A DNA stretch of 64,000 nucleotides, from contig JAUIEA010000002.1 of the NCBI GenBank assembly GCA_030429045.1, positions 1 to 64,000 of the forward strand, in the 5' to 3' direction. The notes below the pieces were generated by a model. It saw nothing but the letters and a program-made list of their open reading frames with translations. It searched no databases and had not been told where the DNA came from. Numbering within the stretch: position 1 is the stretch's first letter; every line of letters begins with the position of its first letter. Shown here in pieces: positions 25,033 through 44,324 of the stretch. This DNA is from Bacteroidia bacterium (GTDB lineage: Bacteria > Bacteroidota > Bacteroidia > Chitinophagales > Saprospiraceae). The position numbers and the translations under genes are program-made.

Positions 25033-25476
25033 TCAATTCTCCTTCAGGTCAAACTTGTCTAAAACCAACTTCTCAACCTGCTCGGCCTTAAAGTCAAACC
25101 AGTCTTGACGATATTTGGAATCATCGATCAGGCGCCTGAAATGCTGAAACGGTTTCCGCCCATTCAACACATCCATCAGGTTTCTTTGAAAAAATGGATC
25201 TTTCAGTTGGTCAACAAATGCTTCCATTATCTTGAATCCTTCATAGCTTGTTGGCGGTTCTATCCGAACATAATCGGATTCATTCTTCGTGACTTCATCA
25301 ATAACATGTTGAAATACCTCCAGATATTCCTGTTCATCGTGATGACTCAAAGACTCTGGAATGTCAATTACCTCATAGGTCAATTTATTCAAGTAACAAA
25401 CGTATCCAGCCTCAAGACTTTGTACAATACTTTTGAGGATGGGCCTTAATCTATCCAAAGAAACAGCCATACGCAT
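25033..25476 (-). CDS. UPF0158 family protein
   Basis: ESDYVRIEPPTSYEGFKIMEAFVDQLKDPFFQRNLMDVLNGRKPFQHFRRLIDDSKYRQDWFDFKAEQ. Confidence 0.85.
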   Translation of the reverse strand: MRMAVSLDRLRPILKSIVQSLEAGYVCYLNKLTYEVIDIPESLSHHDEQEYLEVFQHVIDEVTKNESDYVRIEPPTSYEGFKIMEAFVDQLKDPFFQRNLMDVLNGRKPFQHFRRLIDDSKYRQDWFDFKAEQVEKLVLDKFDLKEN

Positions 25477-25792
25477 CTTCGTTTATGGTTAACAACAGAT
25501 CCTGGAGCCTGGGTGAATGCTCGTGAGGAAGATAGGCATTCCATTTCAAACTGGCTCTCATCCAGTACAGCTTCCAGATCCTTCTGGATTTAATGTATCT
25601 GATCTTCGCAAATGGTTCTTTGTGGAACACTTGCGGATCGTTCCAAGCGGGACGGATCTCAAAGAGCTCTATGGTATGGTTAGTATACGTATACCCATAG
25701 TCAAGCTTGGCCCTTATTTCAGGATTCTCTGGTCGCAGGGATGCAATGAAGGCCTCAACTTCCTTTTCGTTTAAATCGATTATTTCTCCCAT
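25451..25792 (-). CDS. DUF3024 family protein
   Basis: IELFEIRPAWNDPQVFHKEPFAKIRYIKSRRIWKLYWMRASLKWNAY; overlaps the start of the UPF0158 gene. Confidence 0.8.
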   Translation of the reverse strand: MGEIIDLNEKEVEAFIASLRPENPEIRAKLDYGYTYTNHTIELFEIRPAWNDPQVFHKEPFAKIRYIKSRRIWKLYWMRASLKWNAYLPHEHSPRLQDLLLTINEDAYGCFFG

Positions 25793-25816
25793 AAGGAAAG
25801 GGTATTATCAGTTCGC

Positions 25817-25950
25817 ATTTAACGGTTTCGGGCTTTGCGTTGGTGGGCTTTTGAAACCGAAAACTGTCTACCAGTACCAACGTTTATTAATTGCTCAAAT
25901 GTTTCTATTCGTACTTTCCGCCCACTAACGCAAAACCCGTGTTATAGGGC
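25817..25950 (-). other. Putative integron attC recombination site
   Basis: Reverse strand: R'' GCCCTATAAC (25950-25941), L'' gggttttgcgttagtgggc (25938-25920), L' gcccaccaacgcaaagccc (25848-25830), R' GTTAAAT (25823-25817, fits GTTRRRY); L''/L' pair over 19 nt with 2 mismatches; begins 20 bp after the GNAT stop. Confidence 0.65.
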
Positions 25951-26514
25951 GTTTTTCTTTCGTCCATTGTCAAGTCAGTTTATAAATCAATTCTTCAATT
26001 TCTGTTTGTCGGGCATTTGCAAAACCTTTGTCCGAACCGATTTTTACAAAACCACATTTTTCTAATACTTTTTGCGAACCAAAATTGTCAAACGCAACTC
26101 GTCCAAAAATTGGCCTGCTCGTTTCAATATCAAGAAAGTTTTTTAGCGCTTTTGTCGCAACACCTTGTCCCCAAAATTTTCTGTCAATCCAATATGTGAT
26201 TTCCGTGTCGCCTTCCATAATAAACTTAGCTATACTTCCAACAATTATGTTGTCTATGACGATTGTTTGATTATTTACTGTCGGTTCACCTAGCAATTTT
26301 GTGTACTTAATTATATATGCTGCTTTGTCTGTCGGGTCTTTTGGCATAAATGCAGCCAAGTACCCACCTTCTTTGTCAAGTTGAAATTGAAACAAAGTAT
26401 CTAAGTCCGAAATCTGTGTTGGTCTAAGTTTTAAGTCAAGTTTATTGGTTGTCATTGTTGTCTAATTACTATGAAATTATTGTCTGTTCACGGTCGTCCT
26501 ATAATGCCCTATAA
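25823..26514 (-). mobile_element. Putative integron gene cassette (~692 bp) carrying a GNAT gene
   Basis: Left boundary GTTATAGGGC (26515-26506 on the reverse strand) is the exact complement of R'' GCCCTATAAC at 25950-25941, as expected for a circular cassette. Confidence 0.6.
25970..26455 (-). CDS. GNAT N-acetyltransferase, cassette-borne
   Basis: LKLRPTQISDLDTLFQFQ, ITYWIDRKFWGQGVATKALKNFL, NFGSQKVLEKCGFVKIG. Confidence 0.9.
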   Translation of the reverse strand: MTTNKLDLKLRPTQISDLDTLFQFQLDKEGGYLAAFMPKDPTDKAAYIIKYTKLLGEPTVNNQTIVIDNIIVGSIAKFIMEGDTEITYWIDRKFWGQGVATKALKNFLDIETSRPIFGRVAFDNFGSQKVLEKCGFVKIGSDKGFANARQTEIEELIYKLT

Positions 26515-26765
26515 CTTTCTTATATCCGCAACTACCCACTTGTCCTTCCCTTCACTTTTCTGCTAGTGCCCATTCCCTGGTCTCCTCATAATCAGCACGC
26601 TAGCCACCCACAAACGTTTATAACCGTTTGTCATCACTTATGAGGACATCGACAAATTGCAAGTTGGCAGTGCAGGTCCTTTTAAGTGACCTAAGATACA
26701 TTGTTCGTCAGATACATCACAGGTTGGCTTCCTCAGATCGGTCCATCTGACTTCAGACAGACAGA

Positions 26766-27905
26766 TCAGTCAAACTCGCGTAGATACTCCTCAAACACAA
26801 AGACGCGGTTTCGGTCATATCCCGTCACTTCCTTTAAAATTCTCACCTGAATAAATTCCTGGACCAGGGAATTTGCAGCGTTATAGCTCAACCCGGTCAT
26901 TTCCTTCACCTGATTGACACTGACTATGGGTTTCTCGAACAGACCGCGAAGGAGTACCAGACCCTGTTGGCTTCTGCGGCCAAACTCCTGATTGATCTTG
27001 GTTTCAAGTTTCTTTTGCAAGTCCAAGATCCGAACCAGTATCTGCGAAGATTTTTCCGCTGTTTCAACAATGCCTTCCAGGAAATAGGTCAGCCATTGTT
27101 TCATGCCATGCCTATTCCGGACCTTGGTCAGACTGTCATAATACATCCCTTTATCGCGCTCAAAATAGGCCGATAGATAAAGCAGCGGACTGGTCAGTAT
27201 CTTCTTCTCTACGAGGAACAGAGTGATCAGCAAACGCCCTATCCGGCCATTCCCATCCAGAAATGGATGGATGGTTTCGAACTGATAATGCGCAATGGCA
27301 ATTTTTACCAGGTCGGACATCTGGATCTCCTCGTTGTGGATAAAATTCTCCAGATCACCCATCAAGTCTTGGACATGGTCCGGATGAGGCGGTATAAAGG
27401 TGGCATTTGCAAGGCTATTTCCACCGATCCAATTCTGACTGGTGCGAAACTGTCCGGGCAGTTTATGTTCGCCTCGGGCACCTTCCATCAACAATTTATG
27501 CGTGTGTCTGAGCAACCTGGAAGAAAGGGGCAATTGATCCAGGTTGGTGATCGCTTGTTGCAACGCCTGGATATAGTTGTTGACCTCCTTCCAATCATTC
27601 CTCCGCTCGGGAGAGATATCCTCAACTTCCATCAATGCCTCATCCATCTGGGTGCGCGTCCCTTCGATCCTGCTTGAGATCACGGCTTCCTTCGTGACAT
27701 AGAGTTGTATAAAGAGCCTCAAATCAGGCACTAACCGAGAATAGGCATTCAATTCACCAAGTTTGATGGCTGCCTGTTCGATCAATACATTGATCTCCTG
27801 GTCCTCCCAAATCCAGTGATCATTGATCTTTGTTGGCAAGAAGTAATCGTATCCTGCGTTGGTGCGCAGGAGCTGTCCAGCTCGGTATGTTTCCAATTGA
27901 ATCAC
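26766..27905 (-). CDS. Fic family protein
   Basis: HPFLDGNGRIGRLL Fic motif; N-terminal SSRIEGTRTQMDEAL; C-terminal winged-helix-like region. Confidence 0.95.
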   Translation of the reverse strand: MIQLETYRAGQLLRTNAGYDYFLPTKINDHWIWEDQEINVLIEQAAIKLGELNAYSRLVPDLRLFIQLYVTKEAVISSRIEGTRTQMDEALMEVEDISPERRNDWKEVNNYIQALQQAITNLDQLPLSSRLLRHTHKLLMEGARGEHKLPGQFRTSQNWIGGNSLANATFIPPHPDHVQDLMGDLENFIHNEEIQMSDLVKIAIAHYQFETIHPFLDGNGRIGRLLITLFLVEKKILTSPLLYLSAYFERDKGMYYDSLTKVRNRHGMKQWLTYFLEGIVETAEKSSQILVRILDLQKKLETKINQEFGRRSQQGLVLLRGLFEKPIVSVNQVKEMTGLSYNAANSLVQEFIQVRILKEVTGYDRNRVFVFEEYLREFD

Positions 27906-38264: not shown

Positions 38265-39905
38265 TTAACTGAAGTATTGCTCCAGCTCTGCCTGAAAATA
38301 CTGCAGACTGTTGCGCACTGGCAAGGGAATGCCGCCGCCATGGGCACAGAGAGAAGCCGTTTGCAGGGTATGCAGCAGGTCATCAAAGAGGACCTTGTCG
38401 ATCTTGTAGGTTCCACCTTCCGCTTTTTGCAGCATCTCGGCAGCACGCTGGGTGCCCAATCGACAGGGGAAACATTTGCCACAGCTCTCATAAGCGGCAA
38501 ACTCGAAGAGATGCGTCAGGTATTTCACCATGGGCATCCGCTCCGGGATCGAAACTACGGAAGCGTGTCCGAGCAGGAAGCCTTCGCGGCTGAACGCTTC
38601 GAAGTCCACGGTCAGATCCCCGATCTTGCTGACCGGTACAATACCGCCCAGAGGACCGCCGATGTGCAGTCCCTTGACCGGCTCGCGGAATCCACCGCCC
38701 AGTTCATAGACCACCTCCTTGAGTGAGGTGCCCATTTCCACTTCCAGCATACCAGGCCGGTTGAACAGGCCGTCCAGGGAGATCAGCTTGGTGCCGGATG
38801 ATTTCTCCGTACCCAGATCCGCATAGGCTGAGCCACCTTTCTCCAGGATCCAGGGCAAGGCGGCCAGGGTCTCTACATTGTTGACCACGGTCGGTTTGTT
38901 GAACAGCCCCTGGACAGCCGGGTAAGGCGGCCGTACCCGCACTTCCGGGCGCTGCCCTTCAATGGAGTTGATCAGGGCGGTCTCCTCACCACAGATATAG
39001 GATCCCTGGGCATGGATCACCTTGATCTGGAAGTCGAATCCCTTCCCGGATATGTTTTGCCCCAGGAGGCCTTCCTGATTCAGTTGTTTGACCAGATCCT
39101 CTGTCATGCGTACCGCTTCCGGATATTCAGCCCGGATATACATCACGCCCCAATGAGCCCCAGTGACGTAGCCCGCAGTCAGCAGCCCCATCAGGACGGC
39201 CACGCTTTGTTTTTCGAGGAGGTAGCGATCAGAATATGCCCCCGGATCTCCTTCGTCGGCATTGCAGATGACAAACTTCTCCGTACCCGGCGCTTTGCGG
39301 CAAAAATCCAGCTTCATGCTGATGGGGAAACCCGCTCCACCGCGTCCACGCAATCGGGACTGTTCGATCTCCTTGAGCCAATGCTCGGGGGACTGGCTCA
39401 GAAGCCGGTTCACATGGGTACGGGCATCGACCACCGGACCGGTGAGAACCGCAGTCCCGGTACTCCGAACAGCATAATCATCCATGGGCATTTTGTCGCC
39501 ACTGAGGATGGCGGCAATCTCGGCCGGTGATTTTGCGGAATAGTTGTTTCCCTGGTAGAAAAAGGCTCCATTCTCGTGACAGCGCCCCAGGCAGGTCATA
39601 TGACCGATCTCGTCGGGTTTCAGGTGCTTTTCCAATTCGTGGTGGACCGCTTCCTGGGTGCCGGCACACAGACAGGCCGAACCGTTACAGACATAGGCCT
39701 TCTTTCCCCGGTTTTCCTCGCGGGTGAAATCATAAAAGGAGGCCGTCCCGTAGGTATTCGCAGTACCGATCAGAAATTCCCGGGCCAGGTCCTCCAGTGC
39801 TTCAGCGGAGGGGGCTCCTTCTTCAACGGCAGTATCGCCAAGGCGGGCAAACAGGTTATCCTTCAACCCTTTTCGGCCGGATAACTCACTCAAATTCTTG
39901 GACAT
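38265..39905 (-). CDS. Formate dehydrogenase diaphorase subunit, fused NuoE-like and NuoF-like domains
   Basis: CNGSACLCAGTQ...CLGRCHENGA (NuoE-like 2Fe-2S); RLRGRGGAGFPISMK, CNADEGDPGAYSDR, ESCGKCFPCRLGT (NuoF). Confidence 0.92.
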   Translation of the reverse strand: MSKNLSELSGRKGLKDNLFARLGDTAVEEGAPSAEALEDLAREFLIGTANTYGTASFYDFTREENRGKKAYVCNGSACLCAGTQEAVHHELEKHLKPDEIGHMTCLGRCHENGAFFYQGNNYSAKSPAEIAAILSGDKMPMDDYAVRSTGTAVLTGPVVDARTHVNRLLSQSPEHWLKEIEQSRLRGRGGAGFPISMKLDFCRKAPGTEKFVICNADEGDPGAYSDRYLLEKQSVAVLMGLLTAGYVTGAHWGVMYIRAEYPEAVRMTEDLVKQLNQEGLLGQNISGKGFDFQIKVIHAQGSYICGEETALINSIEGQRPEVRVRPPYPAVQGLFNKPTVVNNVETLAALPWILEKGGSAYADLGTEKSSGTKLISLDGLFNRPGMLEVEMGTSLKEVVYELGGGFREPVKGLHIGGPLGGIVPVSKIGDLTVDFEAFSREGFLLGHASVVSIPERMPMVKYLTHLFEFAAYESCGKCFPCRLGTQRAAEMLQKAEGGTYKIDKVLFDDLLHTLQTASLCAHGGGIPLPVRNSLQYFQAELEQYFS

Positions 39906-39923
39906 AGGTAGATTGTGTTGGTC

Positions 39924-39942
39924 TTGCCATGCGGCATGGCAA
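39924..39942. repeat. Perfect hairpin in the 5' leader of the formate dehydrogenase operon
   Basis: ttgccatg-cgg-catggcaa, 18 nt upstream of the start at 39905. Confidence 0.6.
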
Positions 39943-40351
39943 CTCGAAAGTTAGTGGTTATCCTTGGGAACCGGAAACACTGGAAGTGGAATCTGGGCGT
40001 TTGCAGATACAACTGGGAACTTCAATTCGCATTCCCAACAGAGCCTTGTAAAGAAGAATAGCCCTGTCGCGGTAAGATTTGGGACCCAGATCGGGGCATT
40101 CCGGTTGAGAATTCGGATTAGAATACGAAGATCTTATTAGGGAAGGATTAACGGAGCTTATCGGTTGGTCCTGTGTGAAAATGATGAACGTACCAATCCT
40201 TCTCAAAAGGTCTCCTTTGGCTTTCGGTTGTCAACCAAAGGGCTTTACTCGACATTCACAGGACGGTAACACTCGTTAAAAAAGAACGAAACCCCTTTCA
40301 ATACTTCATCATCAAGCGGAATTCCCTCATTTTTGCCGCAAACCTATCGCT

Positions 40352-41107
40352 ATGAAACAAACACTCACTCTCGTTTCCCTGGTCCTGTTTTTGGGACTCT
40401 CATCGCTCCACGCCCAGCGTGAGATCGGTTTGATCGGCCTTGATTTCCAGATCGGACTTCCCCAGGGAGCATTTCAGGATGAATATGATGAGGTCGGTTT
40501 TGGCGGTGGCCTGGATCTGTATTTCAAGATCAATCAAGACATGCCCCTTTATGCCGGATTCAATTTGTCGATGATGGGATTCGAACAACTCCGTCGCGAT
40601 TTTACGGTACTCCTGCCAGGCGGATTTTATGGGGATTATCGACTTCGCACCTCCTCCAATCTCTTTTCCGGGTATGGCGGACTGCGGATCATGCCCGAAA
40701 CCAATGGCTGGGTGAGACCCTATGCGGAAGGCTTGATCGGATTCAAGAATTTCTATATCTCCAAGCGACTGGAAGCCCGACAGGATCTGTTTGATGACAA
40801 CTGGCAGGAACAGGATCGGGATACGGATGGTGACTGGACGCTGGGATTCGGAGGTTCAGCAGGCCTTCTGCTGTTCTTCGGCAACTCCGGGGTTGCCCTG
40901 GACCTGAAGTGCAGCTATCTGGCTGGCGGAGAAGCCACTTTCTTCAAACTGAAGGATGATTTTGATGAGGCCGAATTTGAGGAAAACCCGTTCAGTGCCT
41001 TCGACCCGGTGAAGGCCACCACCAATATGCTGATCCCCCAGATCGGGGTCGTCTTCCAGATGCGCACAGAGCCCAAAGAGGACACCCCGCCGGTGGAGGT
41101 AGAATAA
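40352..41107 (+). CDS. Outer-membrane beta-barrel protein
   Basis: Signal peptide; alternating aromatic/amphipathic beta strands with glycine-rich turns. Confidence 0.7.
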   Translation: MKQTLTLVSLVLFLGLSSLHAQREIGLIGLDFQIGLPQGAFQDEYDEVGFGGGLDLYFKINQDMPLYAGFNLSMMGFEQLRRDFTVLLPGGFYGDYRLRTSSNLFSGYGGLRIMPETNGWVRPYAEGLIGFKNFYISKRLEARQDLFDDNWQEQDRDTDGDWTLGFGGSAGLLLFFGNSGVALDLKCSYLAGGEATFFKLKDDFDEAEFEENPFSAFDPVKATTNMLIPQIGVVFQMRTEPKEDTPPVEVE

Positions 41108-41257
41108 GTCAGCTGTACAGAGGTCGCCCTTAGCGTGCGCCCTGGACTGAAAAATTATTGATGGCCTTCCCGGTTTTTTCCCGTAGAAAGTGCTCGCACT
41201 GACCTGGATCATCTATTTATCTCCTGATTCTGCCTATTTTCCCAAAAATCAGGTCAG

Positions 41258-42718
41258 ATGAAACGGATCCTCCCAGTACTTTGCCTGCTCTTCGCATGGT
41301 GGAGCGGCAGCAGCCAAATCGATATCCAGGTGACCACCCTCGACTCCTTTGCAACCACCGGCATCGGGCAGCAGGGGGTAAACGGACTATATTGTACCAC
41401 CTGGGACAGCCTCATCCATCTCAGCTATTTCTATAGTGACAGCGAAGCACGCACCTGGCTCCTCTATAGCATAAGGGGAGAAAATTCCTTTTTGACGGAT
41501 ACAGTACTGGAAATCCCCGACTACAGCAAGTCCCTGTCCAATACGGCTATCCAATTCGACTCGACCGGTACACCGTGGATCTATGCCGGGTATAATTCGA
41601 ATAATGTCCGGAGCATTCATGCCTATACCCGCACAGATTCCTCGTGGATCGAATCCTTCAGTGTGAATGTATTGGGCACGCCCGAACTGTTCGTGGCGGC
41701 TGCCCCTCATGGCCGGGAGGTCGGATTTGCCTTTAACGGCATACGCATCCCCCCAAACAATCATTACCCCATTCAATATGCTTCCTTTGATGGGACTGCC
41801 TGGAATCAGGTGACCGTATCAGAGGTCGGTAAATCCGAAAAGACAAAACCCAGTATCGTTTCCAGGGATGACCGCCTCTATCTGGCCTTTGCCGAAAGTC
41901 GTTGCCCGGATACCCTGATCACAAGGGTATATGTCAAACAAGACAGTGCATGGACCATCAGCTTTGAGGACAGCTGGTCAGGTGATTATGGATGCGACCC
42001 TCTGGGAGCATACACGACAAAGCTGGGTGCCGATGATGACGGGGTATATCTGTTGCAGGATATCCATCTGGATGAACCATTCCCACAGCTGTACCGGCTT
42101 GCAGACAGCACCTGGGAGCAAGCTCCGGTTCTCTTCGATGAGGATTGGGTGCACCCCTTCAACATGGGATCGAATATCCATCTGGATCCCTTTCATACCG
42201 TGTATTGGATCAACCAGGAAAAACAGGATGAACCAGGCCTGAGTCTCATCCGCACAGACGGGGGAAGCGGGTATATCGCCTTACCGCATGAAGCGTATAA
42301 TATTACCCTGCAGGATATGACCATCTACAAGGGATGGGTCCATATCTATTATTTTGAAGGGAGCTACAACTGGCCCTGGGGCAAGCCCATCACCTTTAAG
42401 GAAGCGCGTGTCAAGATCAGTAAGATCACCAGCACCGAGACTCCAGCTCCCTCCACCACCATTCAATTGCATCAGAATGCCCCCAATCCATTCAGCAACC
42501 GGTCCACTATTTCCTTTTCGATACCTCATCCGATGAATGTCAACCTCACCGTATTTGACCTGCTCGGCAAGCCTGTCCAGACAATTGTCTCCGGCCAATT
42601 ATCCGGTGGAGATCATATGTTTACAGTCGATGGATCGGGATTGTCCAATGGGATGTATTTCTGCAGGCTGTCTGCCAACGGGGAAGTACGTACCTGTTCC
42701 ATGATCGTGTCCCGCTGA
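41258..42718 (+). CDS. Secreted protein with T9SS type A sorting domain
   Basis: C-terminal LHQNAPNPFSNRSTISFSIPHPMNVNLTVFDLLGKPVQTI...LSNGMYFCRLSANG. Confidence 0.9.
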   Translation: MKRILPVLCLLFAWWSGSSQIDIQVTTLDSFATTGIGQQGVNGLYCTTWDSLIHLSYFYSDSEARTWLLYSIRGENSFLTDTVLEIPDYSKSLSNTAIQFDSTGTPWIYAGYNSNNVRSIHAYTRTDSSWIESFSVNVLGTPELFVAAAPHGREVGFAFNGIRIPPNNHYPIQYASFDGTAWNQVTVSEVGKSEKTKPSIVSRDDRLYLAFAESRCPDTLITRVYVKQDSAWTISFEDSWSGDYGCDPLGAYTTKLGADDDGVYLLQDIHLDEPFPQLYRLADSTWEQAPVLFDEDWVHPFNMGSNIHLDPFHTVYWINQEKQDEPGLSLIRTDGGSGYIALPHEAYNITLQDMTIYKGWVHIYYFEGSYNWPWGKPITFKEARVKISKITSTETPAPSTTIQLHQNAPNPFSNRSTISFSIPHPMNVNLTVFDLLGKPVQTIVSGQLSGGDHMFTVDGSGLSNGMYFCRLSANGEVRTCSMIVSR

Positions 42719-42762
42719 GGTTCGTGATAAAATCTCGCTTACTGCATCAGAAATACCCCTGA

Positions 42763-43155
42763 ATGAATCATGTATCCACTCCTCTGATCGGGCACAAATC
42801 CCTCTCCGTCCTGCGATGGGTGGCCCGGATCTGGGGGTCATTAAGCGTGGCTTTTCTCCTTTTTATGATCCTCGGGCATATTATCGATGGTGATGAACCC
42901 TTCACATCCGGTTTTACCTCCACGAAGGAGGTCCTGATCTTTTTCCTGTTCCCTGTCTGCACCCTCATCGGATTGTGGATGGCCTGGCGTATGGAATTAC
43001 TCGGTTCCCTTATGGCCCTGATCGGGGTAGCCGGCCTGTTTCTATTGCGACAGGATTTGATCCTGGATCTATGGATCTGTGTGATCGTTGCACCTGCCGT
43101 GCTCTACCTGATCGCATGGTGGTTCAGCAGGAAAGGAAAATCGGATACCTCCTGA
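42763..43155 (+). CDS. Small multi-pass membrane protein, unknown
   Basis: Four hydrophobic segments. Confidence 0.6.
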   Translation: MNHVSTPLIGHKSLSVLRWVARIWGSLSVAFLLFMILGHIIDGDEPFTSGFTSTKEVLIFFLFPVCTLIGLWMAWRMELLGSLMALIGVAGLFLLRQDLILDLWICVIVAPAVLYLIAWWFSRKGKSDTS

Positions 43156-43220
43156 ACCGGTTCCATCGGAGCCGGGTACGAAATCAGGAACCGGGGCCGT
43201 TATACCCTGAAAACCGGAAG

Positions 43221-44324
43221 ATGCCCAGGCTGATCTCAACGCTGTCTTTTCTGATCGTCATCTGTACAGGATATGGGCAAAACCTGGTCCCCAATCCCTC
43301 CTTTGAGGAGGTGAACAAGGTCGAAAAAAAATGGTGCGGGACCGATGGGGAATTCAACAGGAATATGAAATACTGGGATTCACCGACCCAGGGATCTCCG
43401 GATATATTATTCCTGGATTACCTGGGGCAGATGTTCCCCCCGAGGGAACTGGTCGACCTGTCTGCCCACACGCCCAGGACAGGGAAGATGATGATCGGCA
43501 TCAAAACCTATGGTTGTCCGTCCAGGTTCTCACCCTGCAAAGAGTACCTGCAGGTCAAATTAAAGAAATCACTTCGCACAGGCCAGAAATACTATTTCGA
43601 ATACTGGGTATGCCCCATTCAACCCAGTGTAAAAGTCAATTCTTTTGGCATTGCATTGGCTCGAAACCGGACCAGCGCAACAATGGAACTGGGCACCTTG
43701 GATCTCCAGCCAATGTCAATAAATAAAGAAATCATTTCGTGTGATTCCACTTTATGGCATCGGATATCCGGCGTATTTGAACCCGATGACACCTATGCCT
43801 ATCTGGTCATTGGCAATTTTGCACCGGATCCATCCATGGCCTCCAGGAAAGAACCGGATGGATTGGACTACGGCTATTATCTGGTGGACGATGTATTGGT
43901 CAAAGCCCTCGATGCGTCACCGGTCCAGGAATTCATCGTCAATGAGACCCTGACCCTGGAAAATATCCTCTTTGAATTTGACCGGGCCATCCTCAAACCA
44001 TCATCCAGGGAACCACTTGATGAACTGGTCCAATACCTCCAACACAACCGTGAATTAAACCTGGAAGTGATCGGACATACAGACGCCATTGGGAGCACCG
44101 AATATAATCTGGAACTCTCCCGTGATCGAGCCAATGCCATTCAGGCCTATTTGGTGGAACAGGGAATTAAAAGCTCCAGGATCACCCCCGTTGGCTTGGG
44201 AAATAGTGTACCACTGGTGCACAATGACACGGAGGAAAACCGGCAACTGAACAGACGGGTAGAGATCAGGATCACCCAGCAAAAAAATACCGATCCGAAC
44301 TCTGGATCCATGCACCGGCCATGA
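43221..44324 (+). CDS. OmpA family protein with N-terminal NPSFE jelly-roll-like domain
   Basis: Signal MPRLISTLSFLIVICTGYG; NLVPNPSFEEVN; OmpA core ILFEFDRAILKPSS..LEVIGHTDAIGSTEYNLELSRDRANAIQAYLVEQGI. Confidence 0.9.
   Translation: MPRLISTLSFLIVICTGYGQNLVPNPSFEEVNKVEKKWCGTDGEFNRNMKYWDSPTQGSPDILFLDYLGQMFPPRELVDLSAHTPRTGKMMIGIKTYGCPSRFSPCKEYLQVKLKKSLRTGQKYYFEYWVCPIQPSVKVNSFGIALARNRTSATMELGTLDLQPMSINKEIISCDSTLWHRISGVFEPDDTYAYLVIGNFAPDPSMASRKEPDGLDYGYYLVDDVLVKALDASPVQEFIVNETLTLENILFEFDRAILKPSSREPLDELVQYLQHNRELNLEVIGHTDAIGSTEYNLELSRDRANAIQAYLVEQGIKSSRITPVGLGNSVPLVHNDTEENRQLNRRVEIRITQQKNTDPNSGSMHRP

Follow-up and report, generated by a model that had tools for sequence, protein, structure and literature searches.

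The integrons built on IntI, both the sedentary chromosomal ones with VCR-type arrays and those of class 1, are the described systems most like the one reported here. The two have in common that cassettes run in one direction, are bordered at G|TT and carry a folded attC site. They also share the complementarity of R'' and R' within the cassette circle, an attI beside the integrase, and cassettes mostly with a single ORF. Acquisition of the I2 helix is the stated origin of single-strand recombination by the integrase; this helix has been reported in no other protein, and its loss inactivates IntI1 (PMC7790495). Extrahelical bases in the L box act as strand landmarks for the canonical integrases (PMC7790495). 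The Bacteroidota system differs from this scheme. Its integrase has no IntI-specific insertion with the I2 helix and falls below the TIGR02249 cut-off, its R box is cassette-specific and about 10 bp long with a conserved mismatch at position 11, and its stem has conserved C.A and G.T mismatches and no bulged extrahelical base. In a survey of Treponema integrons, the integrases were termed intI (PMC3607928).

Two other known groups have to be considered. XerA and XerC/D (PDB 5hxy, 4a8e and 1a0p; NCBIfam NF040815) are the closest sequence matches of the Bacteroidota recombinase, with the same catalytic residues and no I2 insertion. Unlike them, the Bacteroidota recombinase goes with cassette arrays and attI, it forms a clade outside XerA and sister to IntI, and its long members are extended at the N-terminus by a further domain of some 75 residues. 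Group IIC-attC introns (PMC7923331) are similar to the introns in the genome under study, which occupy the attC bottom strand at TTGT/T inside R''. The target here, however, is the attC of an I2-less integron, and the class of these introns is assigned from Rfam only. No earlier description of an I2-less integron class was found in the open-access literature (subscription papers and preprints were outside the scope), and the class, widespread in Bacteroidota, appears to be undescribed.

A gene cassette in the window

The window is the whole stretch of DNA analysed, 64,000 nt from a Saprospiraceae genome (Bacteroidota; contig JAUIEA010000002.1, positions 1 to 64,000). The first-pass annotation had proposed an integron-type cassette here, with an R'' box, two stem arms, a GTTAAAT and, about 50 bp upstream of the gene start, the exact 10-nt complement of R''. 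All of these elements were confirmed in place. As inserted, the cassette occupies 25823..26514 of the minus strand, 692 bp between two G^TT crossover points. It begins at 26515 with GTTATAGGGC (26506..26515, minus strand), the half of R' that is its own. The cargo gene (25970..26455, minus strand, stop at 25970) encodes a GNAT N-acetyltransferase of 161 aa (Pfam PF13302, E=1e-16). It is followed on the same strand by the R'' box GCCCTATAAC (25941..25950), the exact complement of the cassette start, by the 19-nt 5' stem arm GGGTTTTGCGTTAGTGGGC (25920..25938) and, 71 nt further on, by the 3' stem arm GCCCACCAACGCAAAGCCC (25830..25848), both arms given in cassette orientation. GAAACC comes next, and then the resident GTTAAAT from 25823, which matches GTTRRRY as membership among integron cassettes demands. 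The resident R' half left by the insertion is GTTAAATGCG (25814..25823, minus strand). The attC-like site as a whole is 127 nt long and folded (25820..25946), and is assigned to the plus strand, that is, to the better-folding bottom strand of the cassette.

The start of the cassette agrees with its own R'' at 10/10 positions, and position 11 is the conserved mismatch of the family. The arrangement is beyond chance. The 10-mer of the cassette ends has three occurrences in 4.27 Mb, two of them at this cassette. The GC content is 37% in the cassette, as against 52% in the surrounding DNA. The flanking genes, identified by Pfam, are a Fic gene upstream (26766..27905, minus strand) and a DUF3024 gene downstream (25451..25792, minus strand). 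The downstream DUF3024 and UPF0158 genes were considered as further cassettes and ruled out, as they have no complementary R''. The intergenic region between Fic and the cassette contains an unexplained palindrome, ACAAACG-TTTATAAC-CGTTTGT (26610-26631). Homologues of the GNAT protein, 47-80% identical, have a patchy distribution in 7 other genomes of the class sample, and none is present in the same-family and same-order genomes listed there. None of the GNAT homologues, including the one on a Hymenobacter plasmid, was found as a cassette, and no copy of the window cassette itself was seen elsewhere. We conclude with high confidence that this segment represents one gene cassette, belonging to an integron class of Bacteroidota; function is inferred from anatomy.

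Folding and family of the site

When rejoined as in the circle, the window site has a folding energy of -31.4 kcal/mol (z = -6.8) on the plus strand, the bottom strand of the cassette, versus -27.1 kcal/mol (z = -4.6) on the other, top strand. The first-pass annotation had proposed to fold the bottom strand and look for extrahelical bases. No base is bulged in the consensus stem, and a conserved G.T wobble and a C.A mismatch occur instead. Consequently the consensus stem does not have the extrahelical L-box bases expected of an attC; the expected single-strand folding is supported by the bottom-strand z value, by covariation and by slid controls. The spacer of the consensus site is asymmetric.

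Relatives of the window site were found independently, and a covariance model was built from 16 sequences including the window site, which scores 159.3 bits against it (E = 3e-42). This model detects no second site in the window or in the rest of its genome. The paired-arm pattern is present in 14 of the 395 class genomes and gave 0 hits in the controls. The site core, loop included, has a mean column identity of 95% and recurs across Bacteroidota orders, and the flanks of sites sharing this core are unrelated to one another. When 84,980 species were searched for the exact pattern, 44 stretches were obtained; almost all have Bacteroidota titles, and they include isolates of Flavobacterium, Pedobacter, Algoriphagus, Litoribacter and Schleiferia. 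At E <= 1e-6 the covariance model finds sites in 99/396 genomes of the phylum, only 8 candidate sites per genome having been scored. A search for the site and the cassette in plasmid records, phage records and IMG/VR found no site.

In an alignment of 142 distinct sites, 97.1% of the main-stem cells are paired, and compensated changes occur in all 18 pairs of that stem. There are 767 compensated cells compared with 244 after shuffling; for covariation, the structure scores 0.608 and the shuffles 0.151 (slid controls, <= 0.057). The alignment was fitted to the model structure, so absolute values favour that structure, and the slid and shuffled controls answer this only partly. At one pair of the stem, 131 of the 142 sites have G.T when the bottom strand is read; on the top strand this would be A.C.

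Cassette arrays and their cargo

Many of the sites form arrays in one orientation, for example 15 sites within 17 kb in locus L145. Agreement of the cassette start with R'' was scored over 6 variable positions in 60 array cassettes, each flanked by adjacent sites. The score is 5.02 for the cassette's own R'', 2.28 for the next cassette and 2.41 at random, and a permutation test of this complementarity gave 0/5000. Position 11 is a near-constant mismatch. The initial proposal was a foreign integron-type cassette whose ends complement its own R'' and mismatch the resident R'; it holds statistically in these array cassettes as well.

The longest ORF follows the cassette orientation in 50 of 51 cassettes, and the distance from its stop to the site has a median of 14 bp. 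This closeness to stop codons, and the good folding of the hairpin, would suit an RNA element or a terminator at the 3' ends of genes in place of a DNA recombination site. Rfam, however, gives the site only sub-threshold matches and no family at gathering score, and a hairpin of that kind would leave unexplained the cassette-specific ends, the G|TT borders at which shared units end exactly, the attI, the association with a recombinase and the introns at TTGT/T. We find this explanation barely credible, and read the hairpin as a recombination site.

A merTP-type cassette of 1015 bp (MerT and HMA domains) is 99.8% identical between L079 (6704-7718), from a Flavobacteriales assembly, and L157 (9507-10521), from genome G310, and the two hosts belong to different Bacteroidota orders. 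The homology starts and stops exactly at G|TT, with no target duplication. By this case, the requirement that cassettes move as units bounded at G|TT is met. The cargo of L071, L079, L084, L145, L150 and other loci includes the defence-like GmrSD, CAP12/Pycsar TIR, AIPR and DndB, and also beta-lactamase-fold proteins. From the window alone one could imagine a transposon- or MITE-like element that has a hairpin and short inverted repeats at its termini and is moved by a transposase, as GTTATAGGGC marks one end, its complement is close to the opposite end, and the pair resembles terminal repeats. Such an element is nevertheless very improbable: the repeats differ from cassette to cassette, the hairpin lies outside one of them, the one-directional arrays adjoin a tyrosine recombinase, and shared units stop at G|TT without duplicating a target. 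Gene cassettes remain the preferred reading.

The recombinase associated with the arrays

A XerA-like tyrosine recombinase is present in 61/99 genomes with sites and in 57/297 without (odds ratio 6.8, p = 1.3e-14). In the same sample of 396 phylum genomes, IntI is present in 108 and is negatively associated with the sites (odds ratio 0.39; 15 genomes with both, 27 expected). Both tests assume that the genomes are independent. Of the 99 site-bearing genomes, 38 have nothing that reaches the chosen cut-off with the recombinase profile, and 33 of these are also without IntI; fragments, divergent enzymes and remnants are possible readings. The recombinase lies 5' of the array for 47/50 ORFs, or about 44/47 distinct genes, some loci in this count having been chosen because they have sites. 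Long enzymes (about 345-500 residues) mostly point in the direction of the cassettes, and Treponema integrases likewise do so (PMC3607928). Short enzymes (about 300 residues) are mostly divergent from the array. Short I2-less integrases (about 250-320 aa) in divergent, canonical orientation were observed in L227, L240, L243, L244 and L150, and the first cassette at the 5' end of the integrase, clear in L227, L240 and L243, constitutes a second layout within the clade. In family f84, four loci (L229, L230, L231 and L233) represent genomes that have a canonical IntI and, on a separate contig, an I2-less integrase of about 500 aa with its own sites.

In those array-linked clade enzymes that could be measured, the KG-KDR motif and HxLRH are 58-63 residues apart (58-59 in nearly all), as against 100 in 25 IntI sequences. 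From this spacing it follows that the 41-residue insertion with the I2 helix is missing, and the array-linked enzymes thus do not have the additional domain specific to IntI. The catalytic residues R-K-H-R-H-Y (R236, K261/K264, H326, R329, H352, Y361), also expected of an integrase, are invariant in 26 sequences. Four array-linked enzymes and the one in the window's own genome score 192-243 bits with TIGR02249, a true IntI scores 496, and the curated cut-off of 265 bits is not reached by the enzymes tested. In the phylogenetic tree, IntI (100/100) is the sister of the array-linked clade (85/95), and both lie outside XerA (97/81). An AlphaFold model of the I2-less enzyme (pLDDT 84.8) has IntI4 bound to attC (2a3v) as its best structural match, followed by XerA. 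The N-terminal domain of the long integrases (for example L084, 6711-7847) has conserved Trp residues, and a role in nucleic-acid binding is possible. Its identification as DUF5710 was not accepted, the Pfam match being below the cut-off, and is kept only as a hint. By strict membership the array-linked enzyme is not IntI, and the system is integron-like by its anatomy.

These data also bear on whether the system is simply a canonical integron, with an ordinary IntI moving the cassettes in trans and the arrays being CALINs. The unit order R''-L''-L'-R', the frequency of IntI in the phylum and the structural match to IntI4 are in keeping with this. However, IntI and the sites tend to exclude one another, sites and the I2-less enzyme occur without any IntI in genomes that consist of a single contig (for example G194, G439 and G434), and it is consistently an I2-less enzyme that stands at the attI end of the arrays. 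We therefore consider a canonical integron improbable, and assign the arrays, by association, to the I2-less enzyme.

The attI and the history of the window copy

At most long-type loci, the complement of the first site's R'' locates the first cassette start 69-126 bp past the integrase stop; in the short, divergent types the attI is at the 5' end of the integrase. The 16 bases before the first cassette start have the consensus TTGCACATATAAACAA, followed by |GTT, and a profile of them recovers matching sites beside integrases that were left out of its building. In L076, two attI-like motifs (2611 and 2649) lie 38 bp apart in opposite orientation.

Directly 5' of the window cassette is TTGCGGATATAAGAAA (26516..26531, minus strand). 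It scores 16.2 bits, which ranks first among the 1563 GTTs of the window (second, 5.8), and the training attIs have leave-one-out scores of 6.9-21.2. This rank indicates that the cassette lies in an attI-type site and not in an arbitrary secondary one. The initial choice between a CALIN and a secondary-site insertion is refined by this result, and insertion at a secondary site was demoted as the main reading once the profile had put the window flank first.

The same-genus genome G732 lacks the window segment in the same gene context. The neighbours are conserved (DUF3024/UPF0158 83%, Fic 86%; DUF3024 has 77% protein identity), and the synteny of Fic is common to both. On the right side, homology reaches the crossover at the resident R' half (CC|GTTAAAT in the window and CC|ATTGAAA in G732). 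The left side of G732 does not align to the window and consists of a ParE-type toxin gene and unrelated sequence. The proposed comparison with relatives lacking the segment was thus successful only in part: such a relative exists, and a clean empty site was not found in it, only the right flank being alignable. In G732, the ParE-type toxin gene and a likely antitoxin (L241, 8613-9181) stand where the window has the GNAT cassette, and this spot may be a hotspot.

Within the same system, the window copy could be the final cassette remaining from an earlier array that lost its integrase by deletion, as opposed to a single insertion at a later time. In favour of this are the strong attI match of the flank and the expectation of an integrase roughly 100 bp upstream, a place that now has none. 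On the other hand, the core and the ends are intact and not decayed, G732 has neither a site nor an attI match at this spot, and a search of the window in six frames found no integrase remnant. This history is possible, and we entertain it only tentatively.

An integron and group II introns in the same genome

The first-pass annotation saw no integrase. This is correct insofar as no IntI over the cut-off is found in this genome and no integrase remnant in the window. The statement does not extend to other integrases, as contig C2 carries a non-IntI integrase with attI and cassettes. This integron of the same class (39464-43487, L162) lies at the contig end. Its integrase (C2 39464-40576) is followed, 86 bp past the stop, by the start of the first cassette (GTTGTTGGGCGTAATG), and the cassettes contain a cytochrome c gene and an alpha/beta hydrolase. 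An integron platform, with integrase, attI and cassettes in order, is therefore present on C2 and across the phylum, and the window itself has only the attI and one cassette of it. The suggested search of the genome for intI and further sites accordingly yielded neither an intI over the cut-off nor any further model-detected site, and did yield this integron. The covariance model misses the C2 attCs because they are short and split by introns. The C2 attI scores -13 with the main attI profile and does not match the window attI, so the enzyme of this genome need not have placed the window cassette. The genome is an assembly of 256 contigs, and mis-binning of C2 is possible in principle, though its GC content matches.

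A group II intron (RF02001, 47.4 bits, gathering 32), lying on the opposite strand, interrupts the first C2 attC, and both RF02001 and RF01998 exceed their gathering scores on it. The borders are GTTGT|GTGTG...CTACTCGAT|TGGGCG, with the exon junction GTTGT|TGGGCG, and the joined exon ends, GTTGTTGGGCGTA, have 13 nt identical to the cassette start. The same intron end begins at the second C2 attC, where the contig ends, and the contig end thus falls in a repeated group II intron. There are three copies of the intron end (C2:41704, C2:43390 and C126:15699). The two on C2 are inside the R'' boxes of attCs; the C126 copy is outside any obvious attC and has a reverse transcriptase-like reading frame. 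On C2 the intron position, on the attC bottom strand at TTGT/T within R'', is that required of a group IIC-attC insertion, TTGT/T inside R'' being the reported target of these introns (PMC7923331). The introns therefore provide independent support that the sites are attC.

Proposed mechanism and implications

As far as sequence can tell, the cassette unit, its borders, the folded site, the arrays, the attI, the adjacent recombinase family without the IntI insertion and the identical cassettes across orders are established. That the I2-less enzyme recombines folded attC is inferred, being assigned by association, and there are no recombination, binding or excision data. In the proposed mechanism, the adjacent XerA-like tyrosine recombinase would bind the folded bottom strand of attC and cut at G^TT. 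The circular cassette would then be joined to attI or to another attC, and resolution of the junction would fall to replication, as it does in integrons already known. The cassette in the window would have been delivered into an attI-type site without a neighbouring integrase, either because the integrase gene was lost there or because an attI-like chromosomal site was used instead.

On balance we favour, with some reserve, the existence of a second integron class in Bacteroidota, independent or ancestral, in which a XerA-like integrase without I2 recombines folded single-stranded attC. The cargo of its cassettes includes mercury transport and several defence-like genes, and one cassette is nearly unchanged between orders. 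If this reading is true, recombination of hairpins would not need I2, because the clade is the sister of IntI. Either the state before I2 would be preserved in these bacteria, or the hairpin would be read in another way, for example by the extra N-terminal domain or by recognition of the mismatches. With a sister clade that lacks I2 and has complete attI-attC arrays, the I2 account becomes directly testable.
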